40,450 nucleotides of DNA. Origin: a bacterium (GTDB lineage Bacteria; Patescibacteriota; Gracilibacteria; BD1-5; UBA6164). The stretch covers positions 1-40,450 of the forward strand of contig JAGXIV010000018.1 of the NCBI GenBank assembly GCA_024635485.1, written 5' to 3'. The notes beneath the pieces are model-generated. The model did not search any database. It was not told where the DNA came from and saw only the letters and a list, made by a program, of their open reading frames with translations. The position numbers and the translations under genes are program-made. Positions 1 through 40,450 of the stretch are shown here, one piece after another; position 1 is the first letter of the stretch, and each line of letters begins with the position of its first letter.

Positions 1-218
1 AATCACGACTTCAACCAATTATTGTTACGACACTTACAACTGTTTTTTGAGTTCTTCCACTTGCTTTGCAAGACCCATTCTGGGCATGACTCTGATTTAC
101 AATTATATTTGGACTTATAGCTGGTTCATCAATGACACTTTTTGTAATTCCAGCATTATATCATACGATTTATCTTAAGAAAAAGATGAGGGAAGGGGAA
201 GTAATAATAGAAGAATAA
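1..218 (+). CDS. RND efflux pump inner-membrane permease, C-terminal end (5' truncated by window)
   Basis: The open frame enters at base 3 and gives about 71 residues ending in TAA. It matches the last transmembrane helices of AcrB/HAE1-family proton-driven exporters: the stretch RLQPIIVTT, then TVFGVLPLAL, a WAGLGFTI segment and a final helix ending LFVIPALYH. The glycines in TVFG and WAGLG are TGA codons, which fits the recoding seen throughout the window. The tail is short, basic then acidic, and ends EVIIEE. A hairpin terminator follows directly. The family assignment is secure from the C-terminal signature, but the substrate cannot be inferred. A diverged second copy of this tail lies at 1653-1733. 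Confidence 0.85.
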
Positions 219-229
219 GATTAAAAAAT

Positions 230-259
230 AAAAATATTCCTCAAATTAGGAATATTTTT
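230..259 (+). terminator. Intrinsic terminator after RND permease gene
   Basis: An 11-bp perfect stem (AAAAATATTCC / GGAATATTTTT) around an 8-base loop begins 12 bases after the stop codon and ends in a T run. Confidence 0.8.
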
Positions 260-296
260 ATAGTATAAAACAGCATAACATCAACAAAAAATATTT

Positions 297-320
297 TCTA
301 AGCAAGGATAAATGCTTAGA
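297..320 (+). promoter_or_regulatory. Hairpin in the pilin A leader
   Basis: Perfect 8-bp inverted repeat, TCTAAGCA / TGCTTAGA, with loop AGGATAAA. It lies between the upstream terminator and the start of pilin A, about 40 bases before the ATG. It lacks a following T tract, so it is not a typical terminator. It may shape the leader RNA or bind a regulator. No known riboswitch was recognised. Confidence 0.35.
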
Positions 321-358
321 CTGATATCAAATCTCCTATTTCCATTTATAATCTATAG

Positions 359-1636
359 ATGAAAAAAATCTTATCAGGCTTTACTTTGGTAGAACTTATA
401 GTAGTTATTACAATTATAGGTATTTTATCGACGGTATGATTTGTCAGCTACTCGAACTATCTCACCTGAGCGCGCGACTCTAATAGATACTCTCAACTCA
501 CAAAACTCTCAGATTCACTCCAAGTCTATGCAACCACTAAATCCCTTCCACTTCCAGATGATTATATAGAGATTACAGCAAGCTGAGCAGCTAATGTAAT
601 AGCATACCAAGGATATGTTTGAACAGATGTTTTAGAAACAATAGACTATACGAATTGAGGACAAGATCCCAAAGATGATTCATTCTACACTTACTACCTC
701 ACCAAAGACAGAAAGAGTCTTCAACTGATGGCACTGATGGAAGAAGCTGGAAGTGTTGCAATAACTCAGAAGCTCAATATAAACAAGACCTTTGCTGCGG
801 ATTATTCATCTAGATATCCAAAAGTATACTGACGTAAACTCTGAGTTCTTACTGAACCTGATACCAATACTCCAGTACAAGAAGTGAGTTCAATATTAAG
901 TGGTTCAGGATATTTAGATATAGTGAAAACTACCAGCAATTATAATGCTATTATAAGTAATGAATCATGAGATATAATTACTGGAACATGATCTTCACTA
1001 CTCATTGCAAATCCTAATTCTAGCTGCAATAGAATTAAGCAGACAGGATGAAGTAGAGGAAATGGAATATATGTACTTTCAACTTTTTGAGAAATTTATG
1101 ATGCATATTGTGATATGGAAACGAACTGAGGTTGATGGACTTTGGTTCATAAGACCACAGACTCACAAAATGATTTAAGCTGAACTCTAGACATTAATGA
1201 AGGTAGTCCAGATTGGGAAAATGATTCTGAATACAGACTCTCAATTAACTATTGGAAATCCCTATCAACTGAATCAGCAATGGCTAAAAATATTCGTATT
1301 GATAATCTAGAGTGGAATGACGTAGAACCTTGAAATATTACAAGTATTAGTACAACTTGAGTAAGCTTTTCACAAACTGATGTGTATAGAATTTTTAATT
1401 ATTGAACTGAAGGTGGTTCACAAAATACATGTACGAGCTGAAGTAATTACTGGAATACTTGATGTTGCGCTCGATGTATAAATTTTGATAATCCTAATTC
1501 ATATTGAAATCCAATTAATGCACCAATGTTAAATATTAATAGTACTTCTATAAGTGTCTCAGCAATTGAATGAGCTTGATGAACTGCGGATTGAGCTTTT
1601 CATAAACTTAAAAAAATGTGAATTTTTCTCAAGTAA
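359..1636 (+). CDS. Type IV prepilin-like protein A with fibrinogen-like C-terminal domain
   Basis: 425 residues with TGA as Gly. The N-terminus is a class III prepilin signal: a short basic leader KKILSG, then FTLVELIVVITIIGIL with the +5 Glu, so a prepilin peptidase would cut after Gly. Residues 35-150 are shared with the pilins at 23083 and 28540 (DDYIEITASGA, DVLETIDYTNGG). From about residue 220 comes a head resembling a fibrinogen C-terminal domain: SCNRIKQ, AYCDMET and GGGWTLV, then further cysteines and a closing FHKLKKMGIF. It is probably a surface adhesin on a pilus or pseudopilus. Flanked by RND fragments. Its PilB-like motor is encoded far away, at 29657. Confidence 0.85.
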
Positions 1637-1914: not shown

Positions 1915-3252
1915 TTATTTTTCTGCATTTTTAGTATAAGAAGCTTTATATATTTCTCGAGCAATTTTTGTTTCTTCTCTGTGATCTACAACGGTTCTTA
2001 TATATCATAGTTTGTTTTCAAGTGGGTCATGAATGGCTTTTAATTCTTGATTTTCTAGTTTTGGAATATATTTTTTTATGTACTTTGCTTTCGCATCAAA
2101 CTTCTGAGACTGTAAAATAGGATTAAATATCCGAAGTGGTTTTGGATCAGCTCCAACACTTGCTGACCATTGCCAATTTCATAGGTTCACTGCCTCATCA
2201 TAATCAAGGAGTTTCTCTGCAAAGTATTTTTCTCACAGTCTCCAGTCAATATGTAAATCTTTTGTGAGAAAACTTGCAACTACCATTCGAGCTCTTCCAT
2301 GCATCCAGTTTGTGGTATTGAGTTGTTTCATCGCAGCATCAACAATTGGATATCAGGTTTCACCATCACACCACTTTTGAAAGAGAAAATCATCATGAGA
2401 CCATTCTATATCTCTGTATTTTTCTAAAAATTCCTCATTTTTTGTATTTGGAAAATTATAAAAAATATGATGCCAGAATTCTCTCCATGCAAGTTCAGAG
2501 ACAAAACTCTCACTGGTATATTTTGCTTTATTATAAATTTGCCGTATAGAAAAAACTCAATGTCTATGATAAGGCGAAAGTCTTGATATTCAATCAAGGC
2601 CTAAATCATTTCTCGTATCATTATATGATTTTTTGATGTGGTTATTAAATCTGTCTTGCCCAAATTCCATTGTAAAATAAGGATGTTTTGGTATATCTAC
2701 ATAGTCTTTTGCTTCTGTTTGCTGTGAGCTTTGTAATTGATGAAATTCTTTCAGTTCGAGTTCATGGAATTCAAAATCTACTTTTTGCCAAAGCTTATAA
2801 AAAGGAGTAAATACCTTTCTTTGTTCAACTTCTTGAGGCTCTACGAGTAAAAAATCTTTATGTGACTCAAAATTACATCCCTGATGCTTGATTTTTTCTG
2901 CAATGGTCTCATCTCTTTTTTTTCCATAGCTTCCATAACTCGTATTCGTGTAAACACATTCTATTTTATATTCATGAACCAGACTTGGAATAATATCTTC
3001 TGGTTTTCAACAAAAAACTATGATTTTTTCTCCTCAAATCTTTTTTAAATCTTCAGATGCGTATTCAAGAGCCTCTCTTAGAAATCAAAATTTTTGATCA
3101 GTGAGTCATCAGAATTTTGGAGTTATATTTTCATCAAATATAAATATTGGTAGTACTTCATTAGAATTATGAACCGCTTCAAAAAGTCCAATATTATCTT
3201 GGATACGTAGGTCTTGTCGAAACCAGAAGATTGATTTTTTGTATTGTTTCAT
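1915..3252 (-). CDS. phr: Deoxyribodipyrimidine photolyase (CPD photolyase, class I type)
   Basis: 445 residues, the usual length for the family. An N-terminal Rossmann antenna domain begins [10 protein letters not shown]. The C-terminal FAD-binding domain carries [28 protein letters not shown], then NLGNWQWSAS with VGADP and RIFNP, the core of light-driven pyrimidine dimer repair enzymes. The Gly of NLGNWQW (codon 358, bases 2179-2181 on the opposite strand) is TGA. It is third in a four-gene minus-strand operon: the exported protein gene ends 3 bases upstream and DUF2256 starts 1 base downstream. It should use FADH- to split cyclobutane dimers. The antenna cofactor cannot be read from the sequence. 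Confidence 0.93.
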
Positions 3253-6713: not shown

Positions 6714-8240
6714 ATGACTATAGTGAAGAAATATTGGTTTGAAATGAAAATACAAGCTTTTACACTCGTAGAACTCATAGTAGTAATCACAATTCTTGCA
6801 ATACTTTGAACAATTGGATTTATTTCACTACAGTGATATTCACTTTCAGCACGTGATTCTCGAAGAATCTCTGATATTTCAACAGTAGAAAAGTCATTAT
6901 GAATATATAATACGACTCAATCTACACTTCCATCTCCAGATCGTGCTATTCTTATTACTGGTTCTTGAAATGCATTATGATATCAATGATTTTTATGAAC
7001 GGGAGTACTCAATGAACTAAAAATGTGAGGTGAAATATTAGATCCATTATATCTTACTCCTTTTATATATAGTACTGATGTATGAAAATCAAGATATCAA
7101 ATTATGGCTTATATGGAAAAATCTCAGCTTTTAGTAGATACAGTTCCTGAAACTTATGCACTAGTTTGAGACTATACGAATTCATTTCCCAAATTTTTTT
7201 GAGAGAGATTTTTTGTACTCTTAGAACCTACTAGTCAAAAATGAATTCATGAAATATTAACTGCGTGAGATACTTTAGATCTAAACGCTAATAATAATGC
7301 CTATTCTATATATCTTACAAATTCAGATTCTTTTACTTGATCTTGATATTCACTCTATTGATATGCTGCAACTATATTAGGAGAGTATGCTCCAAATGAT
7401 TGCCCAAGTTGATTTATTTGAGTGCCATGAAATATAGAGTTTCATCCTGAATGATTTTGTGTGGCTCAATATGAGATGACTTACAGTGACGCGAATGTAG
7501 CAAATAGTGTAGATGGATGAACTGATTTTAATAGTGTTTCATACATCCCTGGAAAAAAAATTGTTTCTCAAGCATGAACTTTTCCAATCTGAGATATTAC
7601 TCAATGAGAAGCAATTGAAGCTTGTAAAACTATAGGAAATGGATTTCATCTTATTACTGAAAATGAATGGATGACTATAGCTCGAAGTATAGAAGCAAAC
7701 AAAGAAAACTGGACTTGAAATGAAATAGGGAATTGATTTATCCCAAATTGAGTTTCAAATAATACAGATATTTGATGTTATGCTACAGCGTCTGAAAGTT
7801 ATGACAGAGTGTTTGCTACTAAAACATGAAAATGAGTCAATGAAACATGTAATTCTCGTAGATCTCATACACTTCAAAACGAAAATATAATATGGGATTT
7901 TGCTTGAAATTTGTGGGAAAACGTGAATAAGGCGAACACAATTGACGGAGTTGGATATAATATTTGAAACTCAACTCTTTCTTCAAGTGATAACGCTACA
8001 TGGTGGGATTTAGATGGAGTTTATGCAAGATCAGAAATGAATCAGTCAGCTTCTTTTACAAATCATGGTTTATGAGAGTGAGTGTGAAGTGTTTATAATT
8101 CACAATGATATGCTCCTAATAATGTATTTTTACGATGAGGAAGTGCTCCAAATGATAGATTTCCTTGAATATATACTCTGAATCTAAGATGGAGAGATAT
8201 TGATTCAGAAGGCTCAGTTGGTTTTAGATGTGCTCGATAA
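6714..8240 (+). CDS. Type IV prepilin-like protein B with FGE-sulfatase/C-type-lectin-fold head
   Basis: 508 residues from this ATG. An ATG 30 bases later (6744) gives MKIQAFTLVE and fits a normal short prepilin leader better. Prepilin helix FTLVELIVVITILAIL; cleavage would follow Ala. The middle (TVEKSLGIYNTTQ, LPSPDR) parallels the other pilins only loosely. From about residue 240 the head resembles formylglycine-generating-enzyme/SUMF1 domains: EFHPEGFCVAQYEMTY, ACKTIGNGFHLITENEW, IWDFAGNLWEN, FLRGGSA and GFRCAR. That fold is used in phage and bacterial receptor-binding proteins. No sign that the head is a formylglycine enzyme. Very rich in TGA glycines. Confidence 0.85.
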
Positions 8241-8253: not shown

Positions 8254-8287
8254 AAAACATCTCTCAAATATGAAAGATGTTTTTTTA
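8254..8287. terminator. Terminator shared by pilin B and the convergent cryptochrome gene
   Basis: Stem AAAACATCT / AGATGTTTT with T-tract on the plus strand. The A-rich left arm gives a T-rich tail to minus-strand transcripts. The cryptochrome stop codon (8285-8287) lies at its edge. Confidence 0.75.
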
Positions 8288-9829
8288 AAATAATGTAGTT
8301 TGATTTAGTTCTCACTGGTATGTATTATTTATTTTTTTTGATTTTTTTCTATCTCATTTGAAAGTTCGACTTGCGTGTTTTTGTATTATCTTTTTCTGAT
8401 TCTCTAATGAAGTATTTCTCTTCGTTGACCATAATATATCTTTTGCTTTTTTATTCGCTTCTTTGATATCAATAATAGGAAAGGGATAATTGAGAGTTTC
8501 AAAATGCTCCCATTTATGTGGTTCATGTATAAACGTTTCAGGAACTTTTCTAAGTTGTGGAAGAAACTGATATATAAAAGTTCATGTAGGATCTTTTTGT
8601 CTTCCATTATAGACTGGATTATAAATTCGTATGGTATTTATTCCAGTTGTAGCAGCTTGCATTTGGATTTGAGGATAGTGAATTCCAGGTTCATAATCAG
8701 TAAAGAGGCATGCTAATCTTGCTGCAATAGCTTGCCAAGGTTGCATACAAGTATTACATAAAAAACTTACGAGCATCGCTCTTGAACGAAAGTTTGTCCA
8801 TCAGGTTTGATGTAATTCTGTGATGACAGCATCTATATATGGGATTCCAGATTTTGCCAGAAATACTGCATCTATGAGCTCAAAATTAGCTTTATTCCTG
8901 AGAGGATTAAAGTCAGGATTAAGATTTCTAATTTCAATTTCAACTTCGTCTTCGAGCTTCTGAATAAAGTGAGATTGCCAATGAAGTCTGGATAAAAAAT
9001 ATTCAAGTGACTGTATGTGATTTTTAGAAGCTGAACTTTGAATTGTTTTGAGTTCTAAGATTCTGTTGTATGTTTTATGAAGAACATATTTAATTGATAG
9101 ACATCAATAGGTGATATAGGGAGAAATACGGGAACAAGATTTTTGTGATTCATAAGGTTTTGAAATATCATACATATATGAGCGACTTCTTTGAGCGAGG
9201 AAATTTTGTAGTATTTTTTTTCCTTCTTCTTCTCCTCATTTTTGTAATTTTCTAGTGGATGCTATAATTTTAAAAAGAGATGAGTAATAGTTTTTACATT
9301 TTTTCGATACTCCTCTCATCTCTTCTGCAATATTTATTTCTCAAGTATTTGATCTGGACTCATAGATTGCTTGCTTCATTCTTTTGTGCCAGATTTTATT
9401 CCAGGAATCTCTATTTTTCAGTTTTCTGACAATCCCATTTGTTGGATATTCTTTGAATTCTATATTTTTACTTCGAAGATACTTTCATATATTTTTATCT
9501 CTTTCGTAACTTTTGAGATTTCAGGTTTCTGCGTGTGCGGATATTTTTTGAATCTTAAAAAATTTTGAAATATATTCAAATCATTCAAGCGAATTATAAG
9601 GAAGAAAGAGAAGAGGAATTCATAATTTTTTTAATTCGCGCTCTAAATGCAAGAGACTGGATACTATAAATTGCATATGAAAATCAGAAAAATCATCTTG
9701 TGAAATCAAGTCACTTTCAAAAAAATATACTCAAATACTTGGAATATCGTTTGATATATTTGCAAGACAAGCATGGTCTGACACTCGTAAGTCTTTCTTA
9801 AACCAGATTATTTCTACTGTTTCTTTCAT
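8285..9829 (-). CDS. Cryptochrome/photolyase family protein
   Basis: 514 residues. N-terminal Rossmann antenna-like domain ([17 protein letters not shown]). The FAD-binding domain has [56 protein letters not shown] and [14 protein letters not shown]. This is not the TGYMHNR/NWQW pattern of the class I enzyme at 1915; it fits a cryptochrome-like branch with TGxxNFRxR. The Gly of TGW is TGA. The basic tail (FKGDRKKSKK) could bind DNA. It may be a repair enzyme or a photoreceptor; the sequence does not decide. Divergently transcribed from topoisomerase IB. Confidence 0.85.
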
Positions 9830-9964: not shown

Positions 9965-11059
9965 ATGAAAGAAAAAATAGAAATACTTAAAAATCTCTAT
10001 ACAGATTATGAAGCTTGCGCTCATAAATTTTGACTGAAATATTGCGAAGATTCGAGTGATTGGATACTAAGAAAAAGAGCAGGAAAATGATTTTATTATA
10101 TTGATTATAAAGAAAATAAAGTAGAAAATTCTAAAACTCTTGAGTATATAAAGAGTTTAGTTATTCCACCTAAGTGGCAAGATACTCTTATTAGTCCAGA
10201 ATCAAAAAATCATTTGCTTGCTATAGGTTTTGATCAAAAAGGGAGAAAACAATACTTGTATAATGAAGACTGGTCCCATGCAAGAAATCTTATAAATTCT
10301 TATAAGATGATACTATTTTGAAATACTCTTAGAGATATTCGAAAACAAGTTCGTAATGATATCAAAACAAAAAATATGAGCTTTAATTTTGTTATGGCAA
10401 CTCTTCTCACGGTATTAGATGAGACAGTTATTAGAATAGGGGATTCATATTATTATGAGCAGAATGAAACTGTGTGACTTACTACTTTACATCAAAAGAA
10501 CATACACATTAAAAATAATTATGCTCTATTGCATTTTCAGTGAAAATCTTGAAAAAATCATAAGATTAAAATCAAAAAAAATAAAATAGTACAGGCTCTT
10601 AGTTTACTCAAAAAACAAAAACAAAAAAATATTTTCTCTTATAAGCAATCATGAGATTGGCATACTCTTGATGCTAGCAAAGTAAATTGTTATATCCACG
10701 AACATGGTTCTGACCTCATTTCTGCGAAAGACTATAGAACCTGGCATGCGACTCGTATTGTCTTTAAAAAATTGATAATCGAAACACAAAAAAAAGATTT
10801 TAAGAATCTGAGTGATACAAAACGAAATAAGATACTTTTGGAATGTTTTGATGCTGCAGCTGAAAAACTATGAAATACAAGAACGGTTGTTCGTAATAGT
10901 TATGTACACTGAGATATGGCTGATACTTTTCGAGATAATAAATTTTTAGATTTTTTCCACTCTATTCAATCAACTCGTAAAATGAAATATCTCTCAAAAA
11001 CTGAATCTCAACTTTTAGCTTTTCTAGAATTTTTATTTCGCGAAAATTTTTCGCTTTAA
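9965..11059 (+). CDS. DNA topoisomerase IB (poxvirus-type)
   Basis: 364 residues, typical of bacterial homologues of the poxvirus enzyme, which relax supercoils through a 3'-phosphotyrosine nick. N-terminal ILRKRAGKGFYYID and LVIPPKWQD are classic. Catalytic landmarks: RIGDSYYYEQNETVGLTT (active-site Arg), FQGKSGKNHKIK (Lys loop), KDYRTWHAT (second Arg) and RNSYVHGDM, where Tyr313 is the nucleophile. The usual VRKSYVHP motif ends in G here instead of P, and that Gly is TGA. The 3' end overlaps the convergent mutarotase by 4 bases. It is patchily distributed in bacteria, so transfer is possible, but codon use and TGA match the neighbours. Confidence 0.92.
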
Positions 11060-12139: not shown

Positions 12140-13612
12140 ATGTCCAATACCGCTCAATTTGTTCTTTATAATCAGCTCAGAGAAGACTATCTCGATATGT
12201 CTCTTAAGTATTTTTGTTATGTGCATTATACTGGAAAAATTAACTTTTTAGAAAAACCACTCAAACTGAATACTGCGAGTAAAATTATAGACTATGCAGG
12301 ATGATATAATCTGGTTCAGATTTTAAAAAATAAATGAAAAAATGCTGAATTTCTCTGCGCTGAAACTTTTTATGCGTGACTTATGAGCTACGCTCAAAAG
12401 AATGATATTTCAAAATTTATTCTGATTCAGCCAGTAGAGAATTATGTCTACGAAAATATTTTAAAGCTGCAAAAAAAATTAGAAAAACAAGATATCGAAC
12501 TTGAAATACGAGAAGATACACAGAGTTTTTTTATTTCTCAAGCTTTATTTGAAAAACAGTATTCCAAACCTCCTGTGATGGAAAACTTTTATAGATATAT
12601 GAGAAAAAAGTTTAAAATAATGGTAGATAATGACTGAAATCCAGAGTGAGGAAGCTGGAATTATGATAGTGAAAATAGATCTTTTGATAAACAGCATCGA
12701 GCTACAAAAATATTTTCTTTGGAGAAAAATGAGGGCTTACAAAAAGCAGAAGAATTTTATAATTTTGAGATTAAGATTTTTCAACCTACCACTCGAGAAG
12801 AAGCACTTGAAATGCTTGATTATTTTGTACAAAATCACTTAGAGCATTTTGGAGAACTGGAGGATGCGATGTACCAGCATGATCCATATGTGTTTCACTC
12901 TATGCTCTCAACCAGTATTAATTTTGGACTCTTATCTCCTCAAGAAGTGGTAAAAAGAGTGACAAGTACGAAAACTGCTCTTAATAACAAAGAGTGATTT
13001 ATCCGACAAATTCTCGGTTGGAGAGAGTATATGTATCATTTTTTTCAGCATTATAAAGATTCAATGTACTCAAGAAATCATTTTGAGCATGAAACAGAGT
13101 TGCCAGATTTCTTTTGGAGTCATGCAGAGAAGTCAGAAATGAATTGTCTCTCGACCACGCTCAAGCAAGTGCAGGATGAAAACTTTTCGCATCATATTCA
13201 GAGACTTATGGTAATAGGGAATTTTTCGCTTTTAACCGAGCGTGATCCTCATGAACTCAATAGATGGTTTTTTGAATATTATACTGACGCCTTTGAATGG
13301 GTTGTTAGTCCAAATGTGTTGGCTATGAGTCAATTTTCAGACGGTGGAAGACTCGCGACAAAGCCCTATATCGCAAGCGCGAACTACATAAACAAGATGT
13401 CAGATTACTGTAAAAATTGCAGCTATAATCACAAAGAAAAATACACCGAAGATGCTTGTCCATTTAATTATCTCTATTGGGCTTTTGTAGATACAAACAA
13501 ATCAGCTTTTGAGGGAAGACAACCATTTGTGATTTCTAATCTGAAGAAAATAGATATAGAAAAAGTACAAGAAATGAAACAAAAATTCATGAAAAAAATA
13601 TCTGAGCTTTAA
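12140..13612 (+). CDS. phrB: Iron-sulfur (6-4) photolyase, PhrB/FeS-BCP family
   Basis: 490 residues. An N-terminal DPRP/PF04244 domain (FVLYNQLREDYLD; GGSWNYDSENR near residue 172) precedes an FAD-binding helical domain with HHIQRLMVIGNF and MSQFSDGGRLATKPYIAS. Four cysteines suited to a [4Fe-4S] cluster sit at residues 336, 424, 427 and 440. Their spacing (88, 3, 13) equals what I recall for Agrobacterium PhrB. Family members repair (6-4) photoproducts using FAD and 6,7-dimethyl-8-ribityllumazine as antenna; lumazine synthase is encoded at 27422 in this window. A possible Shine-Dalgarno, AAGGAGA, lies about 30 bases upstream, too far to set the start. The 3' end overlaps the convergent gene by 4 bases. 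Confidence 0.92.
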
Positions 13613-16884: not shown

Positions 16885-17994
16885 TTAAAATTTTAAATAG
16901 TCTCATTTATTCAAACGCTCTTTCTCTCACTTCTCGCCAAACTCTAGATTCTCTACATATCATTCTTCAAAACCTCTGACTTTGAGATTTTCAAAGGTGT
17001 AAAAATCGTGGGTTCAGGATTGTATTTGTGCGTAACAGACGAAGTAGGGAATTTCGTGCTGATTGTAGGACTTGATTTCTGGAGGTCGAACGGAGAGCTC
17101 GAGTCCGTATTTTTCTCAGAAATACTGCTGAATCATAGCTCTGGGATCAGAGGTATTTTTTCCTATGAGAAATGGTGAGAATTCAGAATCTTTGCTAAAA
17201 TATATTTTGTGATTTTCGTGTAGGATTGCTATAACGTAGGCTTGTTTGCTTGGAAAAGTAGACTTCTTTTTTTCTTTTATGGGCTCAAGTTCTCAGCGAG
17301 TTTGATAAAATTTTGACTCTGGAAATGGGTATGTTTCCCAATTGATTCCAGAAATATTATTGAGGGAAATCGTTGCTCCATAATCCATCAGCGCATTATT
17401 GATATCTCGAGAAATTGAAGCTTCTTTCTCTTTTCAAGAGAGAGAATTCAAGAGAGAGTTATAATATTCTTGCATCTGCCGTAATAATTCTTCTTTTTCT
17501 TCTTTGCTGAGTTTTTGAAATTTGTTTCCAAAGAAATAACGAGAGAATATCTTTTCTAAGTTTGTATCAAAGGAAAGCGTTGGAATATCGTATGCAAAGG
17601 CTCTAATAGCTTCGGCTGTATATGGACCAACTCATGGAAGTGTCCTGAGAAGCTCGGTTTCTTTTGGAAATATTCAGTCAAAATCTGATACGACTTTCTG
17701 TGCAGCTTTGAGCATATTCCGAGCTCGTGAATAATATCAGAGTCATTTATAATAAGGGAAGAAATCCTCATAACTCGCAGCTGCGAGATCTTCGACGCTA
17801 GGAAAAGCACTCAAGATATTTTCAAAGTATGACTTTACTCGCTCTACCTGTGTTTGTTGGAGCATCGTTTCAGCAAGCCACACTCTGTATCCAAGCTCTT
17901 TTTTAGTAAAATCATAATCTCGCCAAGGAAGCGTATTTCGTCAGTTTTTTTGATACCAAGTGTGTAACTCAGAAAATGGGAATTTTGAAATCAT
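16885..17994 (-). CDS. mutY: A/G-specific adenine glycosylase MutY, cluster-less form
   Basis: 369 residues. It removes adenine mispaired with 8-oxoguanine. [15 protein letters not shown] holds catalytic Glu42; the helix-hairpin-helix [12 protein letters not shown] (about 119-130) is followed by LSFDTN with Asp143. Both first-domain motifs are intact, and the first Gly of PGVG is TGA. After NNALMDYGA, where most MutY proteins carry C-x6-C-x2-C-x5-C, the sequence runs [16 protein letters not shown] with no cysteine, so the [4Fe-4S] cluster is lost. The C-terminal NUDIX-like domain (about 225-369) probably reads 8-oxoG. It uses fewer TGA codons than its neighbours. Divergent from DUF2177. Confidence 0.9.
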
Positions 17995-19272: not shown

Positions 19273-19944
19273 ATGAAAAACATATTCTTACTGTGAACCC
19301 TTTGATTTTTTCTCATGTCTTGTTCGTCTACGAATGAAACATCTTTGATACAAAATTCTAATATAAATGATGACCAATCTATGCAATCTCAAAAAACTAT
19401 ACTAGCACTCTGAGATAGTCTTACTGCTTGATACTGACTTGAGATTTCTGAAAGCTATCCAAATAAACTCGAAAATATATTATCACAAAATTGATATAAT
19501 TATAAAGTAATAAATGCTTGAGTAAGTGGTGATACTTCTAAGAATTTACTTGATAGAGCAAACTTATATCTTGATCAAAATCCAGATATTGTTTTACTGG
19601 TTATTTGATGAAATGATGGACTGAGGTGACAATCAATTGATGAGCTCAAAGCGAATATTCAAAGTATTATAGATTTATATAAATCAGATACACAAATCGT
19701 ACTCTGAGGAGTCGAAATACCTGCGAATTTTTGACTCAGTTACACGAGAGAATTTAAAAAAATATACTTTGATATTTCAAAAGCTAATAAAGACATCTAT
19801 TTCTTAGAATCTTTTCTTAAAGATGTTGGATGAGTTCCGTCTTTAAATCAAGCAGATAGAATCCACCCTACTAGTGAATGATATGATATTATAGTTAAAA
19901 ATATGTACGAATTTTTACAAGATGAAGATATAATCCAAAAATAA
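19273..19944 (+). CDS. GDSL-type lipase/esterase lipoprotein (TesA-like)
   Basis: 223 residues. Lipoprotein signal with lipobox LMSC, so the enzyme should be anchored outside the cytoplasmic membrane. SGNH hydrolase blocks: ALGDSLTAGYG (nucleophile Ser49; the G of GDS is TGA), VINAGVSGDTS (block II), VIGGNDGLRG (block III Asn) and RIHPTSEGY (block V, Asp/His dyad). It resembles E. coli TesA, a thioesterase/lysophospholipase. Four bases before an ABC ATPase and then an FtsX-like permease, as in the tesA-ybbA-ybbP group of proteobacteria. An in-frame ATG upstream would give an atypical leader. Confidence 0.9.
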
Positions 19945-19948: not shown

Positions 19949-20608
19949 ATGATAGAAATAAAAAAATTAGTAAAATATTTCTCTGTTTCTTGAGAAAAAG
20001 TCAGTATTTTCGAAAATACTGACTTTTCACTATGAGACTGAGAATTTATTGCGATAGTTGGCCCAAGTGGAAGTGGAAAATCGACTTTTTTAAATATTCT
20101 TTCATGAATTGAGAGAGAATATTCAGGAAGCGTTCAATTGAACTGACAAGAGTTATCAAAACTCTCTGATGCAAAAATGACCCGATTTCGAGGACAAAAT
20201 ATTTCTTACATTTTTCAAAATTTTAAACTGATTGAAAATCTTACTGTAAAAGAAAATATCGATCTGATTGTGGATCTCAATAAACTTGAGAGAAATTTTT
20301 CTACTCTTGAAATACTCAAGATAGTATGACTTGAGAATAAGCTCAACTCTTATGTGTATAACCTCAGTGGTTGAGAATCGCAAAGAGTAGCAATTGCGAG
20401 AGCTTTTGTATGAAAAACAAAACTACTTCTTGCTGATGAACCAACATGAGCGCTTGATGTCGTGAATAAAAAAATAGTAATGGAACTGATTGTGAGACTG
20501 CAACAAAAAATAGGGAATACCATAGTACTTATTACCCATGATGATGAAGTAGCACAGTTAGCTGAAAAAATATATAGAGTGTATGAATGAAAATTAGAAC
20601 TTACATAA
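19949..20608 (+). CDS. ABC transporter ATP-binding protein (YbbA/LolD-like)
   Basis: 219 residues. Walker A GPSGSGKST (about 38-46), Q-loop FQNFKLIENLTV, signature LSGGESQRVAIARA, Walker B LLLADEPTGALD, and ITHDDEVA with the H-loop. The second Gly of LSGGE is TGA (20372-20374, codon 142), a near-invariant glycine and so strong evidence for recoding. Members of this MacB/LolD/YbbA group pair with FtsX-like permeases and drive mechanotransmission rather than classical transport. The partner permease starts 4 bases downstream. Confidence 0.93.
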
Positions 20609-23028: not shown

Positions 23029-23039
23029 ATATTGGATGA

Positions 23040-23045: not shown

Positions 23046-23082
23046 TACACTAATAAGTAATATCTCTCTTAGAATTACACTT

Positions 23083-26187: not shown

Positions 26188-26664
26188 ATGTTTGAATATT
26201 TACCTGCTGATGCCACACTCTACCAATCAACAATTGAAATACTTATTATTCTATGAGGAACTTTTTTGCTTTGAATTATGTTATGATGGCTTATAAAACC
26301 ATCAAAAAAGATACATATCACAGATACTCAAAATAATACGAGAGAGGAAATTATAACGAGTATTCCTACAGGAGATAAAAATGAAGACTTATTGATTCCA
26401 TGAGATATTTCAATTATTATTTGAATTGATTCTAAAATCCAAAAATTTTTAAAAAAGCATGATGTTACTTCTTTTACTGATATTGTGAGACTCGATGTTC
26501 AAGGTCTAGAAACACTTATACTTCAGGGATGAGAATCTTTTAAAAACTATATCCCTACTACTTGGCCAGATCAAGCTCGATTGGCTTCACTTTGAAAATG
26601 GAACGAACTCGAAGAATATCAAGAAATACTCAAAAAGTGAGATGAAAAAAATACTGTAGCTTAG
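26188..26664 (+). CDS. Membrane protein with helix-hairpin-helix-like domain
   Basis: 158 residues. One N-terminal transmembrane helix rich in Gly (TIEILIILGGTFLLGIML, then GWLIKP), a short linker, then a soluble domain: ISIIIGIDSKIQKFLKKHDV and SFTDIVRLDVQGLETLI, in the pattern of the HhH domains near L21-like and Pol-X proteins, and a tail YIPTTWPDQARLASLGKW that resembles 'TWxEQAxLAxxGxWxxL' tails of HhH proteins in CPR bacteria. Ends with TAG. The 3' end overlaps the convergent RFK-FMNAT gene by 4 bases. May touch DNA at the membrane; unproven. Confidence 0.7.
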
Positions 26665-26680
26665 GCTTCAGTATTTTTTT
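26645..26680. terminator. Bidirectional terminator between convergent genes
   Basis: Arms AAAAAATACTGTAGC / GCTTCAGTATTTTTT (one mismatch) with loop TTAG, which holds both stop codons; A and T tracts suit both directions. Confidence 0.75.
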
Positions 26681-27416
26681 TCTTTAAAAGAGAACTTTTA
26701 AAAATATCAGGTTTATAAGAGGGACTTCTTATGATTTTTGATTTGAATCATATTTTTTTGAGTTCTTCTGGGAGTCTCTCTACAAACTTTCATCTTTGGT
26801 CGTAGCCAAGACAAATTACATGTGGTTTATATATTTCTAGCCATTTCATTGGATTACTGTTACTCCCAGGTTCAATTATTTCAGATATTTTTAAATTTCT
26901 GAGAGACTCTATTCTTTCATTAAGACTATGTAGGGGAGCCATTGATTTTATTTTTTTAATATTTTCATCACTTGCAACTATAGTAATAAGTTTATTTCCA
27001 TATTTTGAAGCTTGTTTAAGATAATATTCATGTCACGGATGAATGTGGTCAAAACTTCCAAATGTCAGTACATTGAGCTCAGTTTCTTGGGCTTGTTTTT
27101 TATCCTGAGCTATTTGTTTTTTGAGATCATCAAAACTCTCAAATTTTTTGTTCTCTCTGATTTTTTTTAGAAGTATTATTTCGATATTTTTTCAGTAAAT
27201 ATCTTCGTTGAAATCAAAAATATGAACTTCAAAGAGATTTTTTCATTCAAGGTAGGTTCAAACTCAATTCCAGTATGTACCAGATATTCCAATCTTTGTA
27301 ATATACACTCAAAAATCTACTTCTTTTGAAGTAAGAGAAATATTTGCTGTTGGGAATCATAGAGTTCTTCAAAGCTTTTTTCAATGAAGCACCTTTCAAG
27401 TTACAGTTTGAATCAT
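26661..27416 (-). CDS. Riboflavin kinase fused to RibL-type FAD synthetase (reversed domain order)
   Basis: 251 residues. Residues 1-112 are a riboflavin kinase domain: VTGKVLHGKKLGRTLGFPTAN, split as TGKVLHGKKLG and RTLGFPTAN, with FEVHIFDFNEDIYGK and KKFESFDDLKKQIAQDK. Residues 115-251 are a cytidylyltransferase-like FMN adenylyltransferase: VLTFGSFDHIHPGHEYYL, VICLGYDQRG. The HxGH Gly (codon 128, bases 27033-27035) is TGA. Bacterial RibF has the adenylyltransferase first and of a different type; this one looks like archaeal RibL placed after the kinase. It makes FMN then FAD. Third gene after ribE and ribH. Confidence 0.88.
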
Positions 27417-28539: not shown

Positions 28540-29610
28540 ATGCTCATTCACCAAAAACTTCGGGCTTTTACGCTTGTAGAACTTATAGTTGTTATTACTA
28601 TTATTGGAATACTTTCAACCGTATGATTTGTATCATATTCTAATTATTTATCATGAGCGAGAGATTCAAATAGAGTTTCTCAAATGATTAAACTTAATGA
28701 TTCTATCCAGGTTTATTCTGCTAATAAGACACTCCCTCTTCCGGATGATTATATAGAAATAACTGCGAGTGGTGCTAGTAATGTTATAGGGTACCAGTGA
28801 TATCTTGGTGTGGATGTTTTAGAAACTATTGATTATACGAATGGTGGAAAAGACCCTAAAGATCAGAGCTATTATACCTACTATGTTTCAAAAGATAGAT
28901 CAGCATTTCAACTACTTGCTTTACTTGAAGAATCTACAGGTTTAGCATCAAACATACAATTAGGATCATCAGTAAACGCGATAAGTTATGATGAAAGATT
29001 TATTAAAGTATATTGAAAAAAATTAGGGATATTAACATCAACTGCTGCAAGTACTCTCAATACTCCGGTACAAGAAATTACTGGAACAACCAGTGTTGAT
29101 ATTGTAACCACTACCAATACTTATATTGCTCACTTATCTGATGATGATAAGCTTGAATGAACAGGAGCAGTTCTCAGAGCAGCCCTTCCTAATGCAAGTT
29201 GTAAGAGAATTAAACAAGTTGGAAAAGGAACTACAAGCTGAATTTATGCTATTAATCCAACAGGTAGTACGAGTATAAATGCTTACTGTGATATGGATAT
29301 TGCTGGTGGAGGATGGACACTTGTTGCAAGAAGTGTTACAGGAGGAACGTGATGATTTGTTCTTACAACGAGTACAGGATCAGTTACAAACTTAAGTGCA
29401 CCCTATATACTAGCTCCTAGCAACTTGAAATATTCTTCTCAATTATTTACTGCCTACTCATGAAATTATGATATTAGTAAATCGAAAGAAACAGCAACTA
29501 CTTCTGCGAGTTTAGTGCAATCTCCTCATACTCTCAGTGTTTCTCTTATTACTGGTTGAGTTGTGTCTGATGGCTATAATGGGAAGACTGGAATGTTATT
29601 TGTAAAATAA
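28540..29610 (+). CDS. Type IV prepilin-like protein D with fibrinogen-like head
   Basis: 356 residues. Leader MLIHQKLRA then FTLVELIVVITIIGIL; cut after Ala. Residues 35-150 match pilins A and C (LPLPDDYIEITASGAS, DVLETIDYTNGGKDPKD). The head from about residue 219 is akin to that of pilin A: NASCKRIKQVGKG, NAYCDMDIAGGGWTLVARS. It is about 70 residues shorter than A and lacks A's later cysteines. In the shared part this copy often uses GGT or GGA where A and C use TGA. The convergent PilB ATPase lies just downstream, the best functional link in the window between these pilins and a motor. Confidence 0.87.
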
Positions 29611-29623: not shown

Positions 29624-29658
29624 AAAAAAACTCTGAAGTATATCTTCAGAGTTTTTTT
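29624..29658. terminator. Bidirectional terminator between pilin D and pilB
   Basis: Perfect 15-bp stem AAAAAAACTCTGAAG / CTTCAGAGTTTTTTT, loop TATAT. It overlaps the pilB stop codon (29657-29659). Confidence 0.85.
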
Positions 29659-30967
29659 ATATAACACGAATTATTTCTTCAATCGTAGTAAATCACTTTA
29701 GTGCCTTGAGTATTCCATCCTCTTTCATGGTAATAAGGTCTCCATTTCTGGCTTCATGGATTACTTGTTCCACTGAGCCTCAACCTCTAATGATGTCTCT
29801 TATTCTATCATTGAGGGTGATTATCTCATATACTCCTATTCTTCACTTGTATCCAGAATGATTGCATTCTTCACATCCTTCTCAAACATAGAGTTTCATA
29901 TTTTCACTTGGAAGAATACTCATTCATGTTTCTTGCATCATTGCTTCAATAAGCGCTATATCTTGAGCTGTTTTTTCTCTTTCAATTTTACAGTGCGGAC
30001 AGATTTTTCTCACGAGTCTTTGTGCAATAATGGTATCAAGTGCTGAAGCAAGAATATACGGTTTGAGTCCCATATTTATAATCCTATCTAGAGTATCTGC
30101 TGCTGACTTAGTATGAAGGGTCGAGAGGACAAGATGACCTGTAAGGGAAGCAGATGTGGCTGTTTGAAGTGTTTCGAGATCTCTTATTTCTCCAACCATT
30201 ATGATATCAGGATCTTGTCTTAAACATGCTTTCAGTCCAGAAGCAAAGGTGACTCAGTGTTTATCATCAATTTCAGATTGTACTATTCATTCCAGTTGGT
30301 ATTCTATAGGATCTTCTAGAGTAATAATCTTTTTTTCTCTCGTATTGAGTTTATGGAGCATAGTATAGAGTGTCGTTGTTTTTCAAGAACCAGTTGGACC
30401 AGTCACGAGAACCATTCATGATTTTTTTGAGATAGCTCTTTCTATCATTCTTTTAGAAGTCCAAATAAATCCTAGTTCCTCAAAATTAATAACTGCTTTT
30501 TCTGAATCGAGTATTCTACACACTATATTTTCTCAATAAGCAATTGGAAGCGTAGAGACTCTCACATCAATTTTTTTATTTCACTCTAAATCAAAAGAAT
30601 ATTTCCCGTCTTGTGGAATATTTGAAATATTTAGCTTGAGATTAGAGGCATATTTTAGTCTTTCAACTATTTTTTTATATTCTGCTTTTGTAAGCCTAAA
30701 AATATCTACGAGAACTCCATCAATTCTAAATCGTACAAGAACATAGTCAGCAAAACATTCATAATGTATATCTGAACTTCAAAGTACCAATGCTCAGAGA
30801 GATATATCTTTTAAAACTCATTGTGTATCTTGTTTTGCAAGTCATTCCTTTACTTGTTTTTCTATTTTTTGAAATCGTGATGAAGAATACTCCCGTTCCT
30901 GAGCTTTTTCTAAAATTGCTTCTTTCAATTCTTCTGTGTCGACCTTTTGAGTTGATTTTTGAGCCAT
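29657..30967 (-). CDS. pilB: Type IV pilus/type II secretion assembly ATPase (PilB/GspE)
   Basis: 436 residues. It powers pilus extension. N-terminal helical part (about 1-60), then the N2 domain with [19 protein letters not shown] (split [16 protein letters not shown]), Walker A GPTGSGKTT with TGA as its second-last Gly (codon 195, bases 30383-30385), Asp box TLEDPIEYQ, Walker [16 protein letters not shown], His box [14 protein letters not shown], and a zinc tetracysteine KICPHCK / [11 protein letters not shown]. Shorter than typical PilB because the N1 domain is reduced. It faces pilin D convergently. No PilC, PilM-Q or peptidase gene is in the window. Confidence 0.93.
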
Positions 30968-33313: not shown

Positions 33314-33976
33314 TTAAATGAGTATGACAAATTCTCCTTTTATTTTTCAGGAATTTTCTAAAAAATATTTCTGTACTTCTTCTACACTACCTCTTTGATA
33401 GTCTTCAAATTTCTTGGTAAGTTCTCTCCCAACTACTATATGATGTTCTGGTCCAAAGTAAGTCGATATGTCTTTCAGTGTTTTTTGAAGTCGATGAACA
33501 CTTTCATAAATTACAATGGTTTCAGTTTTATTTTCTGATATTCGCTTCAATAAGGTTTGTCGTCATTTCTTTACAGGAAGAAATCAGAGATACAAGAAAT
33601 GATGAGAACTCATTCAGCTGGCACTCAGTGCTGTTATAACTGCGCTTGGTCCAGGAAGTGCTGTAATCTCAATTCATTTTTCTAATACAGCTTGGACCAG
33701 AGCATACCCTGGATCAGAGATACCTGGAGTTCCAGCATCAGAAATGAGAGCTACATTTTTCTCATTTTGTAGCATATCAATAATTTTTTCTACTTTTGAA
33801 ATTCCAGAATGAGAATGATAAGAGAGAGTAGGGGTATCTATTTCGTAGTGCTTCAGAAGTACTCAACTCGTTCTTGTATCTTCACAGGCAATATAGTCTA
33901 CTTCTTTCAGAATTCTCACGGCACGAAAACTCATATCTTCAAGATTTCAAATTGGGGTAGGAACGATATAGAACAT
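33314..33976 (-). CDS. rsmI: 16S rRNA 2'-O-ribose C1402 methyltransferase
   Basis: 220 residues. Tetrapyrrole-methylase-fold enzyme; methylates C1402 in the ribosomal decoding centre with SAM. Motifs: VPTPIGNLEDMSFRAVRIL (G is TGA), YIACEDTRTSGVLLKHY, LISDAGTPGISDPGYALV, LPGPSAVITALSASG, FLYLGFLPVKKG, IVIYESVHRLQKTL, IVVGRELTKKFEDYQRG, ending KGEFVILI. It lacks the longer C-terminal domain of E. coli RsmI, as many small versions do. It lies in the minus-strand operon, 38 bases after the coiled-coil gene. Confidence 0.94.
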
Positions 33977-35216: not shown

Positions 35217-37643
35217 TTACATTATTCAAATTCTATATTCAATTTCCTTTGAAACAAAGGCTTTATCTCTTCCGTACTTGAGTCGTGAAAGTTCAATCAA
35301 AGCTTTTGCAATTTTAGGATCTCAGGCATCTAGATACGGGTTTGTTGGAATGATTGAAAAGGGAGTAGACGGTTGATTATCTATCGCGAGTTTCATTACT
35401 CCTTTGAACTTATCCATATTAATGAGATCAGTATCAGAAAAGGTAGGCTGGAAATATTTTGCCATAAACTCTCCATCTTCTGGACCGACTTTATAACTCA
35501 TCACACTTCCCACATTCCCAAAGATAGCATTTTTAAGATTGAGACTTGATTTAGTAAGTGCATCTGACTTTTCTAATTGTCCTAAGTATTGATGTGCTAA
35601 AATAAGTCACAGTCGATATTTTCGTGCTTCAGAAAGTATCGACTCGATTGAAGGCGTAACATAGTTTTGAAACTCATCAATATAGAGGTAAAAGTCTTTT
35701 CTTTGATCTTTTTCCATACGTTGACGTTGCATAGCAGCTGTTTGAATTTTACTTACTATAATCATACCCAGAAGCTGAGAATTAATATCTCAAATAAGCC
35801 CTTTTGAAAGATTGAGAAGTATTATTTTTCATTCTTGCATACATTGCGCAATATTAAAGGAACTTTTTGTTTGTCCAATAATATTTCTCATAGTGGAGTT
35901 TGTGATAAACCCTGAGAATTTTGCTGCAAAATAAGGAATAATTTCTTGTTTTTCTCTTTGCCCCATAGAAGCATATGTTTTTTCCCACCATGCTTTAACA
36001 ATTGGATTTTTTACATTTCGAACATGGTCTTTTTGAAAGTCGTCATCTGTAAAAAGTCTGATTATATCTGTGAGTGCACCACCTTGAGGGTATTCCATCA
36101 GAGTGAGACATCCATTTAAGAAGTAATCTTGAAGTCGTGGACCAAACACTTCGTTTCAAAAGAGTTTAATCATTATATTTGTTGCGTCTTGAGCCACCAT
36201 ATCTCGTTCTTCTGGAAGCGCTTCTAGAAGATTGAGACCAATAGGTCGACTCTCATCTGATGGATCAAATATGATAACATCATCTGCTCTTTCTCGAGGT
36301 ATGAAGGGAAGAAGGTCTTTTACAAGATCTCCATGTGGATCCATAACAGCAAGCCCTTCTCAGTTTTTAAAATCCTGTCTCGCCATAGCTTGGAGAATAG
36401 AAGATTTTCAAGTACCAGTTTGTCCAATAACATAAAAATGTCTAAACCTATCTTCTGTTTTTATTCGGATTTCTTTTTTTATTCCTCTATGAATATTTTC
36501 TCAAAGTAAGAGTCCTTCTTTTGGTATATCGTTAGGAGCTTTTACTATTTTAAAGTTTTGCCACTTAATTTCTGGAGTTTCATTATACCTAATATGTGGA
36601 AAGTGAAAAAGTGATGCAAGTTCTTCTGTATTGAGAATCATTTTCTTTAACCAAAATGGCTTTGAAAAATATCTATAGATATAGTTTTTAATGAGTATTT
36701 TTTGACTATGATAGATAGTTGGAGCAAATTTATTGAAGTCAGGATGTGAAAATTGTGTAAAACTACTTATAACATTCTTGAGTTCTATTTCTGTATCCGA
36801 TTGTTTATTTCACGTCGTAATAATTCTGATAATTACTTCATAGCCAGTTTTATCTCATTTTTCATCAACCGTTTTTGCTCTTTCTTGGGTGAGTGCACTT
36901 GATGTATTGTCTCATGGACTTTTATCATCAGAACTTTCATTTTGAAAAAACATTTCAAAAAAGAATCCAATGAGCTTCAATGGATTTAAGTTGAATCCTG
37001 AATTTTTTGAATGCATCATCGTGCTTGATATTTTTGCAGACTTACTTTGCCAATCATCATCAATAGGTTTAACGAGGATTTGAATAGCAGCCGATTGGTC
37101 TTCTTCAAGCTTAGAAAAAGCATTTGTAATATTATTTATTGGATCTGATTCAAGCTTTTGATATGTTTTGATAGGGTATGGAAAAATTCTTTTTGTATTC
37201 AGGTAACTTGTTGCAAATGCTTTTCTGTTTTCAAAGATATTTACTTCTTTCGTTTCTTCCACAATTGCGTCAGGATAAAAACCATTTATCTGTTTTTCTA
37301 ATAGTTTTTTATAATCTTTAGAACAGGTAATATAAAAAAATATTTCGCTGTCATGAGCTATATATTCAAATGTTAGAATATCTTGTCATAGTATTTTTTT
37401 GAGAATTTTTGATGAATGAGTACTTTTGAGTGATGCCAGGAGCTGTTCCATCAGACCAATCATTTCTTTAAAATCTTTCGTTGTTTCTTTTTTGCTATCG
37501 GAGTCAGAGTTCTTTTTTGGAAGGGTTACACGAAGAAAAACCGTTTTGAGTGTACGGCTATAGTTATATCGCTTCTTTGACACATAGATCAAAAGAGAAA
37601 CAGAAATAATTATCAGGGAAAGTAAACTTATAATTTCAAGCAT
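35217..37643 (-). CDS. VirD4/TraG-like (type IV secretion coupling) ATPase
   Basis: 808 residues. N-terminal helix (LEIISLLSLIIISVSLLIYV), a charged region to about residue 400, then a FtsK/HerA-type motor: Walker A GQTGTGKSS (codon 412 is TGA, bases 36408-36410), DPHGDLVKDLLPFIP, IIFDPSDESRPIGLN, Walker B FYLYIDEFQNYV, ILAHQYLGQLE (sensor/Gln). It resembles TraG/VirD4 and DUF87 proteins common in CPR genomes. No relaxase, VirB4 or other conjugation gene is near, so an envelope or DNA-uptake role is as likely as conjugation. First gene of a five-gene minus-strand operon; tail ends EYRIGIM. Confidence 0.85.
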
Positions 37644-37835
37644 ATATTTGGGTTATATACATATAGTATACTCTATATTATCAAAATAATAAATCAAAAC
37701 ACGTCATAAAAACTAAAAATATTTTGACGAATGAGTATATATGTCTAAAGACTAAGAATATTCTTGTTTTTTTCTCTTTGACTTTCACTTCTTTTTTCTA
37801 AAATAAGTACTATTAATATTTTTACTTATCTTGCG

Positions 37836-38282
37836 TTGAAAATCCTTTTTCTTGATAATATTCGAAGTATGCAAAATGTTGGGGCATTGTTTCGAAATGC
37901 AGACTGATCTGGTTTTGAAAAAATATTCCTCACCGGTTGTACTCCTACTCCACCAAGAAAAGAAATATCTAAAACAGCTCTTGGATGAGAAAAAACTATC
38001 GATTGGGAATATTATAGCAATGCACTGGAATGTTTAGATGAGCTCAAAAATCAGTGATTTACCATATATAGTATAGAACTTGATACAAAAAGTATCGATT
38101 ACAAGGAACTTTTTTGAAATACTCCAGCTAACTTAGTCCTTATATTATGAAATGAAATAGCTGGTGTTCAAAGAACTTTGCTTGATGAATCAGACGAAAT
38201 AGTTATGATACCTATGTTATGAAAAAAAGAATCTCTCAATGTTTCTGTCGCAGGATGAATTGTTATGTACGCAACGGTATAA
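37836..38282 (+). CDS. TrmH/SpoU family RNA 2'-O-methyltransferase
   Basis: 148 residues from a TTG start (LKILFLDNIRSMQNVGALF). The first in-frame ATG, at 37872, would cut the conserved NIRSMxNVG start. SpoU motifs: NIRSMQNVGALFRNADGSG (motif 1), VLILGNEIAGVQ (motif 2) and PMLGKKESLNVSVAGGI (motif 3), which form the trefoil-knot SAM site. ADGSG, LGNE, LGKK and AGG glycines are partly TGA. RNA target unknown (tRNA or rRNA). Upstream about 190 bases hold no other gene; the start of the ATPase operon diverges from it. The next gene begins 24 bases downstream. Confidence 0.88.
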
Positions 38283-38293
38283 AATTATAAATT

Positions 38294-38298
38294 AAGGA
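38294..38298 (+). promoter_or_regulatory. Ribosome binding site supporting a TTG start
   Basis: AAGGA, 7 bases before TTG at 38306. Most genes in this window lack a clear Shine-Dalgarno, so it helps to fix this start. Confidence 0.45.
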
Positions 38299-38305
38299 AA
38301 AATTT

Positions 38306-40450
38306 TTGAAAAAAATATTTTGAATCCTCATATTCTGGCTTCTTACTTTGAGTACTACTTTTTGATCGAGTGCTTTAGTTGAAGATATATTTTCTGACAT
38401 TTCCTCTGATTATATATATAGAGATGAACTTCAAACTCTCTATGATAGAGGAATGATTATTCCTGATGCTTCTGCTCGTTTTAATCCTGAAGCATTTTTG
38501 AATCGTGATGAATTTGTGTGAATTTCAATGGAGGTTATATGTGAGAGATGTATCGCTCCTCATACTGATTATGCCCTTATCGAAGAGTTTGCCAATACTG
38601 AGGTATATTTTGATATCAATCCCACTAATCCATATTTTTATTGTGTTGCTGAAGCAGATAAACAAAACTATGTACGGGGGTATGATATTTCCCAAAGCTG
38701 TGAAAATGGAACAACTCGTTTTTGAGAGCGACCATTTTGTCCCACAAACAGAATAAATTTAGAGGAAGCAGTTGCAGTACTTCTTCGTAATTCGGGTATT
38801 TTTACTATAGATGATAATCAAGCAGTGATATCTGGAATACTCTCTGGAACCATTACTCAAACACTTTGAAATGATGTCACTCCTACTGATGGAAATGGAA
38901 ATCCATATACCTTTTATGGATATATAAAAAAAGCACTTAATTATGAAATCACAGAATATGATACTGCATGAAATGAAAAAATCCTTAAACTTCTAGAAAC
39001 AGATTCTACTGGAGCTATAAATCCTAAACAATCTATCACTAAAGAGCAGTTTTTGAGAATGTCTTATATCGCTCTCAAATCTAATAGTTGTAATGAGCTT
39101 TCAAATGAAGAACTTGCTCTGAAAATGAATATTTTTGAAAAATCATGTCAGCCGTGACAAGTGAATTGTACACTTTCAGATTTAAATGATCCTGTTGATA
39201 CTTATGATTTTGATGCTGATGCACAATGAATATGTGAACTATGAATAGAAGAACCAAGTGGATATGTATGGAGATTTATACATGTTGATACTGGTCAAGA
39301 GCTGTTTCGTTATTGAAAATTTATTGATAACTTTGAACTTAATTTAGCATGAGAATGGAAGGTCATGCTTAGAGTTGTAGATAGATGTTGACAGAGTAGT
39401 GAAGTTTATTCTACTATTATTGTTGATACTTGAGATCTTTCACCTCAACAAATAGATGTGAGTATTGATGTATATGATGATAGTTGTGCTTCGATTACAG
39501 CAAATTGTCCTACTATTGATTTCACGAGTGGGGAAACTGATGGAGACAATACTTTTGATTTTGGATGAAATGTAGATACGACCTGTAATGTCTGAACAGT
39601 TCAATATAACTGGACCTATACTCACGCAGCGAGTAATACGATACGAAAATCTAGTTGAATATTTCAAGATAATAAAGTATTTGATATTGATGGACTCTGG
39701 AATATCAAACTTGATGTTCGAGACTGATGTGGAAATACTGGAAGTGAGCAAATGACATATACTGTCTATCCTGAGACTCAAGAAACCTTTATTGATCTAG
39801 ATATAGATATTTTTGATGATGCTTGTACGTGAGTAAATGCTAATTGTACAGAAATATTTTTTTCGAGTGAAGAAAGCGATGGAGATAATACCTTTGATTT
39901 TGCCTGAGATGTAGATACGAGTTGCCAGGTTTGAAGTGTGAGCTATAATTGGAAATTTCAGAGATCTGGATCAAGTGAAATACTCACTCGACAGTGAATG
40001 TATGTAGATAATTTTTCATTTTTAGATGCGTGAGTATGGAATATACAACTAGATGTTCGAGATTGATGTGGGCAAACTGCCAGCGAACAGTTAAGCTATA
40101 TTGTTCCAGAAATACAACAAATAGATGTGAGTATTGATGTATTTGATGATATTTGTACTTCGATTACAGCAAATTGTCCTACTATTGATTTCACGAGCGG
40201 AGAGACAGATTGAGACAATACTTTTGATTTTGGATGAAATATAGATACGACCTGTAAGATTTGAACAGTTCAATATAACTGGACCTATACTCACGCAGCG
40301 AGTAATACGACACGAAAATCTAGTTGAATATTTCAAGATAATAAAGTATTTGATATTGATGGACTCTGGAACATCAGACTTGATGTTCGAGACTGATGTG
40401 GAAATACTGGAAGTGAGCAAATGACATATACTGTCTATCCTGAGACTCAA
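38306..40450 (+). CDS. SLH-type surface protein with tandem beta-sandwich repeats (3' end beyond window)
   Basis: 715 residues to the window edge. TTG start gives LKKIFGILIFWLLTLSTTFG, a signal peptide. An S-layer-homology-like domain follows: VEDIFSDIS, YRDELQTLYDRGMIIPDAS and FNPEAFLNRDEF, then a second SLH-like stretch with cysteines. From about residue 380 come PKD/Ig-like repeats of about 110 residues, each starting with an IDVxIDxxDD core and ending LDVRDGCG, with two conserved Cys. Units lie at 39452, 39794 and 40121. Units 1 and 3 are nearly identical at DNA level; unit 2 is divergent. Units 1 and 3 show a GGA/TGA swap at one codon. Probably the cell's surface layer or adhesin. Confidence 0.85.
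39452..40450 (+). repeat. Coding tandem repeats of the SLH-type protein
   Basis: Three units: 39452-39793, 39794-40120 and 40121-40450 (cut by window). Units 1 and 3 are offset by exactly 669 bases (223 codons) and differ at only scattered positions. Unit 2 shares the pattern (SDGDNTFDF, LDVRDGCG) but is much diverged. An A-B-A-type pattern suggests a two-unit duplication that extends beyond the window. Confidence 0.9.

Follow-up and report, generated by a model that had tools for sequence, protein, structure and literature searches.

The 40,450-nucleotide (nt) stretch of contig JAGXIV010000018.1 studied here (the window, meaning this whole stretch) carries genes whose reading frames are dense in the codon UGA (TGA in the DNA), and an earlier note on the same DNA had proposed that UGA encodes glycine (Gly) throughout this genome, as in NCBI translation table 25. 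When the main open reading frames (ORFs) were chosen with table 25, in which UGA is a sense codon, and smaller ORFs were set aside, they covered 91% of the window and held 448 in-frame TGA codons (36.7 per 1000 codons). The 36 ORFs that end inside the window stop at TAA (34) or TAG (2), just as the note had described, but our choice gives fewer main ORFs than its estimate of some 43 genes (Table 1). That TGA stands at 0 of these 36 ends is built into the outcome, since UGA was sense during ORF choice. The two remaining forward frames contain TAA and TAG at 12-39 per 1000, so long frames without either are not due to chance. Under table 11, the longest ORF in the window is 193 amino acids (aa), and gene calling with that table would fragment the contig, as had been foreseen; naming the code therefore matters for annotation. 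The six TGA codons that the note had placed at conserved glycines are all TGA, in frame, and at the expected motif.

Table 1. Coordinates of the window and of the in-frame TGA codons and ORFs discussed in the text.
Feature	Coordinates	Strand	ORF, domain or remark
Whole window, table 25	1..40450		37 main ORFs; one runs off the end
TGA as Gly of NLGNWQW, DNA photolyase, residue 358	2179..2181	-	ORF 1915-3252; PF03441, PF00875
TGA as Gly of GDS, GDSL lipase, residue 61	19411..19413	+	ORF 19231-19944; PF13472
TGA inside LSGGE signature, ABC ATPase, residue 142	20372..20374	+	ORF 19949-20608; PF00005
TGA inside HPGH, nucleotidyltransferase half of flavokinase/FAD synthase (RibF), residue 128	27033..27035	-	ORF 26661-27416; PF01687, PF01467
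TGA as Walker A Gly, PilB/GspE-like ATPase, residue 195, GPTGSGKT	30383..30385	-	ORF 29657-30967; PF00437, E 1.1e-119
RsmI-like methyltransferase ORF, 7 in-frame TGA	33314..33976	-	41% identity to E. coli RsmI, five codons masked
TGA as Walker A Gly, VirD4/TrwB-like ATPase, residue 412, GQTGTGKS	36408..36410	-	ORF 35217-37643; PF10412

Residues opposite UGA and the machinery that reads it

We aligned ORFs from the window and from eight 18.8-20 kb stretches of the same genome (G000) against standard-code proteins encoded on stretches of E. coli K-12 and two other genomes (G092 and G087), with TGA, GGA, TGG, CGA, and CGG all masked in the translation beforehand. A homologue was found for 30 ORFs (48 pairs), and the residue scored at each site was the commonest opposite letter. 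In the window alone (9 ORFs), 80 TGA sites could be scored, and we found Gly at 40, cysteine (Cys) at 1, and tryptophan (Trp) at none, while the GGA control sites faced Gly in 33 of 57 cases. With the eight stretches added, Gly stood opposite 106 of 203 TGA sites, Cys opposite 1, and Trp opposite none, next to 120 of 200 for the GGA control. TGG faced Trp at 18 of 26 window sites, in keeping with the note's statement that Trp is TGG in the same proteins. We also looked at prfA, the gene for release factor 1 (RF1), where 16 columns hold Gly in 80% or more of 18 standard-code rows. At these columns, the 41 recoded rows have 199 TGA codons, together with 234 GGA, 131 GGT, 64 GGG, and 20 GGC. Over all prfA columns, 226 of 298 recoded TGA codons lie opposite columns where 50% or more of the standard rows are Gly; 0 of 298 lie opposite such a Trp column.

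RF1 is present in G000 (TIGR00019, 460 bits), with eight TGA codons within prfA. A search of G000 for release factor 2 (RF2, encoded by prfB) with TIGR00020 returned the prfA locus as its sole match, which scored 273 bits (cut-off 370); the release-factor models gave matches in 10 of 14 control genomes. A 2019 study likewise reports prfB as absent from all BD1-5 genomes then available (PMC6851277).

A pattern search located a tRNA with anticodon UCA in G000, on a different contig from the window (G000:C33:37355-37395, minus strand). This tRNA is 79 nt long including CCA, has a short variable loop, and carries G1-C72, C2-G71, G3-C70, and U73, which are the glycine elements listed in PMC8629427. 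Its D-loop lacks GG, and ARAGORN, which detects it on the fetched region, draws a six-pair anticodon stem and labels it 'SeC', a label that we take to follow from the anticodon. The Rfam tRNA model (RF00005) gave no UCA tRNA in G000 at E 0.001 or at E 10: of its 33 matches, the 32 above the cut-off were typed, none as UCA, and the 33rd scored 16.9 bits and was untyped. A looser tRNA pattern also gave no UCA tRNA in G000. Since RF00005 missed the tRNA-Gly(UCA) of G000, with its D-loop without GG, a census based on this model may undercount such tRNAs. The tRNA-Trp(CCA) of G000 has a five-pair anticodon stem, as a 2026 paper expects for organisms in which UGA is Gly (PMC13092985).

Taken together, the residues aligned to each codon, the set of release factors, and the identity elements of the tRNA(UCA) agree with the note, including the three checks it had proposed (the residues opposite TGA, a tRNA-Gly(UCA), and the loss of prfB). 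They leave us almost certain that the source of the window is a genome of the Gracilibacteria (BD1-5) that uses UGA as a normal Gly codon through tRNA-Gly(UCA), with RF2 gone, UGG as Trp, and CGA and CGG as arginine (Arg). In this mechanism, the dedicated tRNA-Gly(UCA) would read UGA; RF2, which would stop at UGA, would have been lost, leaving RF1 alone to terminate at UAA and UAG; UGG would be kept as Trp by the five-pair tRNA-Trp(CCA); and CGA and CGG would be kept as Arg. Going by published work on relatives, the tRNA(UCA) is presumably charged by glycyl-tRNA synthetase, and UGA is probably not misread in the cell.

The code of G000 is the same as table 25, the SR1 and Gracilibacteria code, with UGA as Gly, UAA and UAG as stops, no RF2 found, and a tRNA-Gly(UCA). 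Recoding of UGA had reportedly been predicted for these groups by 2013, in work by Wrighton (2012), Campbell (2013), and Rinke (2013). That UGA is Gly in G000 is thus correct and already known for the group. For the BD1-5/SN-2 proteome, Hanke et al. (2014) report 97 unique peptides with a UGA-Gly database versus 3 with a UGA-Trp database (PMC4032931), and both Gly charging of the tRNA and Gly insertion at UGA are published for relatives (PMC4032931 and PMC13293708). A 2026 review describes the code as restricted to the JAEDAM01 lineage, with a single origin (PMC13293708).

Several points weigh against reading UGA as Gly in G000. About half of the TGA sites are not opposite Gly (Gly 52%, versus 60% for GGA), a portion that we read as divergence. 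The Rfam model gave no UCA tRNA and only the pattern search did, and with its D-loop lacking GG this tRNA could in principle work poorly, though it is conserved in three families. Since the G000 assembly is 93% complete, the absence of prfB leans partly on relatives. Finally, BD1-5/SN-2 is another organism and was studied by proteomics, while the evidence for G000 comes from sequence alone.

CGA, CGG, and other readings of UGA

According to PMC8629427, the Absconditabacteria (SR1) code has UGA as Gly, as here, but CGA and CGG are predicted to be Trp there, and CGG is predicted to be Trp in some Gracilibacteria as well. If G000 followed these relatives, UGA as Gly would be accompanied by a further change of CGG (and CGA) to Trp, which we consider very unlikely. 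In the window and eight stretches, Arg was opposite 42 of 73 CGA sites and 5 of 6 CGG sites, and Trp was opposite none of either. When G000 was compared with its relatives, CGG fell in Arg columns at 2 of 7 sites, in Trp columns at none, and in neither at 5; in three genomes of the same genus, CGG was at Arg columns in 3 of 7 (G002), 1 of 2 (G004), and 2 of 3 (G005) cases, with no Trp column and the rest in neither. A tRNA pattern search gave no tRNA(CCG) in G000. CGA and CGG thus behave as Arg in G000, CGG on few sites; table 25 therefore applies unmodified, and we saw no difference from it in this genome.

On the other hand, sister genera of the same family (f1) appear to read CGG as Trp. 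In 9 of 19 sampled f1 genomes (L229, L231-L235, L237, L238, and L240), CGG occupies a column where relatives have TGG, and in none of the nine does it occupy an Arg column; eight of the nine share one site, and G044 has another. More such cases came from six named loci (L113, L116, L129, and L149, with L114 and L128 weaker). Against standard-code proteins, CGG in the other f1 genomes faced Asp at 8 of 16 sites and Met at 5 of 16; the main site of this kind is TGG in relatives. The f1 genomes G016, G020, and G022 carry a tRNA(CCG) with G73, the CCG tRNAs of G050, G055, and G061 (family f2) have A73, and ARAGORN labels all of these Arg. Since no f1 genome has CGG at both Arg and Trp columns, the family seems, on thin evidence, to be split over whether CGG is Arg or Trp.

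For UGA itself, a Trp reading (table 4), as in mycoplasmas, would give open frames identical to those of table 25, so ORF structure alone cannot tell the two apart. However, Trp was the commonest opposite letter at 0 of 203 TGA sites, the acceptor end of the UCA tRNA is of the glycine type, with U73, and the tRNA-Trp has anticodon CCA on a five-pair stem, which makes this reading extremely improbable. Selenocysteine, or stop read-through at special sites, would fit the ARAGORN label but not 448 TGA codons in 37 ORFs, Cys at 1 of 203 sites, and a 79-nt tRNA with a short variable loop, and can be dismissed as more improbable still.

Other genes in the window

Four pilin-like genes (359-1636, 6714-8240, 23032-24447, and 28540-29610) have a similar N-terminal part (mean column identity 69% across the first 0.6 kb) and differ downstream of it. 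According to Pfam, three of them contain N_methyl, two contain Fibrinogen_C, and one contains Laminin_G_3; the four resemble pseudopilins whose binding domains can be exchanged, and a repeat search within them gave short weak repeats only. ORF 26661-27416 has a flavokinase domain (4-111) followed by a nucleotidyltransferase domain (117-241), an arrangement opposite to the one usual in RibF; it matches CTP_transf_like, and its FAD_syn match is weak and below the cut-off. Five genes within 17 kb (1915-3252, 8285-9829, 9965-11059, 12140-13612, and 16885-18015), comprising two photolyases, a topoisomerase IB, a photolyase-related protein (PF04244), and an HhH-GPD glycosylase, make this a DNA-repair-rich stretch for a reduced genome.

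The code across the order and a relative with RF2

The conserved UCA tRNA is listed in 64 of the 77 genomes of the order (G000-G076) by our own count, and the other 13 may be incomplete or divergent. The copy in family f3 is 83% identical to that of G000. In the GTDB collection, the tRNA core occurs in 61 stretches, 52 of them titled Candidatus Gracilibacteria; the remaining nine include one true copy (L163), two chance matches, and six classed by title alone (Patescibacteria group, Candidatus Altimarinus, or uncultured bacterium). The chance matches are exact cores in Nesterenkonia (L161) and Verrucomicrobiia (L155), where the DNA is 64% and 60% GC, respectively, and the flanks are unlike a tRNA. 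The core was not found in IMG/VR, and a stricter tRNA pattern, limited to tRNAs with CCA encoded in the gene and blind to family f13, gave no match in 285 other genomes drawn from the phylum, 25 of them from the class. The prfA of G000 is placed within f1 with support of 99/97. The note had assigned the code to Absconditabacteria/Gracilibacteria; judged by the relatives with the same tRNA, the lineage would be Gracilibacteria (BD1-5) and not Absconditabacteria.

Of the 77 genomes of the order, G022 alone has an RF2 above the cut-off; elsewhere in the class, 19 of 22 genomes do. The RF2 model detects RF1 or RF2 in 89 of 99 genomes. The RF2 of G022 (G022:C153:10080-11129) contains no TGA, while the same assembly, 2.7 Mb in 500 contigs, also carries a prfA with 16 TGA codons, and we therefore suspect that this RF2 is a contaminant. 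Outside the order, the two genomes of family f13 (G086 and G097) have no RF2 above the cut-off, and their prfA genes hold 6 and 9 TGA codons, respectively. Their UCA tRNA is 57-58% identical to that of G000. We guess that f13 is Absconditabacteria; unlike what this guess would lead one to expect, its single testable CGG is at a column scored as Arg from just two rows (AGG and CTT). G088 (f15), which is 94% complete, gave no match at all to the RF2 model. Nine further genomes likewise lack a match to this model, among them G003, which is 91% complete.

The use of UGA follows base composition. In 39 genomes of the order, sampled over 4-20 kb each around prfA with ORFs called under table 25, the UGA share of Gly codons falls from 82% at 23% GC to 7% at 53% GC (Spearman -0.91, for related genomes that are not 39 independent points). 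The few testable TGA sites of seven GC-rich genomes faced Gly in 8 of 14 cases and Trp in none. Together, the gradient and the Gly-facing sites in GC-rich genomes indicate that mutational bias acts on UGA as on any other synonymous Gly codon.

G087, the sole genome of its order in our comparison set, is a standard-code relative from the same class, in which 29 of 127 ORFs of 150 aa or longer end in TGA and RF2 scores 464 bits. It also carries a 77-nt tRNA with anticodon UCA and the glycine identity elements, with a GCG...CGC acceptor and U73 (G087:C1:4485-4561, L166), on a 7.3-kb contig whose tetranucleotide make-up is typical of G087 (distance 0.022, equalled or exceeded by 10 of 19 pieces of this genome). 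Two NCBI-labelled Gracilibacteria described in PMC8629427 have RF2 and are given there as lacking tRNA-Gly(UCA), whereas G087 has both. Its tRNA(UCA) is 69-70% identical to the UCA tRNAs of f13, 68% to that of f3, and 64% to that of G000, compared with 61% to its own tRNA-Gly(UCC) and 64% to that of G000. Since its identity to G000 is 64% for both the UCA and the UCC tRNA, common descent with the UCA tRNAs of the recoded families is suggestive only. The prfA tree places neither f13 nor G087 firmly, and an approximately unbiased (AU) test on prfA rejects neither the grouping of every recoded row in one clade (p 0.41) nor the same clade with G087 added (p 0.29). The core of the G087 tRNA was not found in IMG/VR.

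The plainer reading of G087 is that its tRNA(UCA) is mutated or unused, or that it reflects a binning error. It is conceivable, though rather unlikely, that a UGA-reading tRNA-Gly is older than the loss of RF2 and that G087 is a living intermediate in which UGA would be both a stop and, weakly, Gly. In a non-exhaustive literature search, we found no earlier account of the GC gradient, of where the CGG split falls within the family, or of the G087 tRNA. What this comparison offers is a GC-dependent gradient of UGA use within one order, a family that seems split over CGG, and an RF2-bearing relative with a candidate UGA-reading tRNA-Gly, which together make the order in which the new tRNA, the loss of the release factor, and the spread of the codon came about testable.

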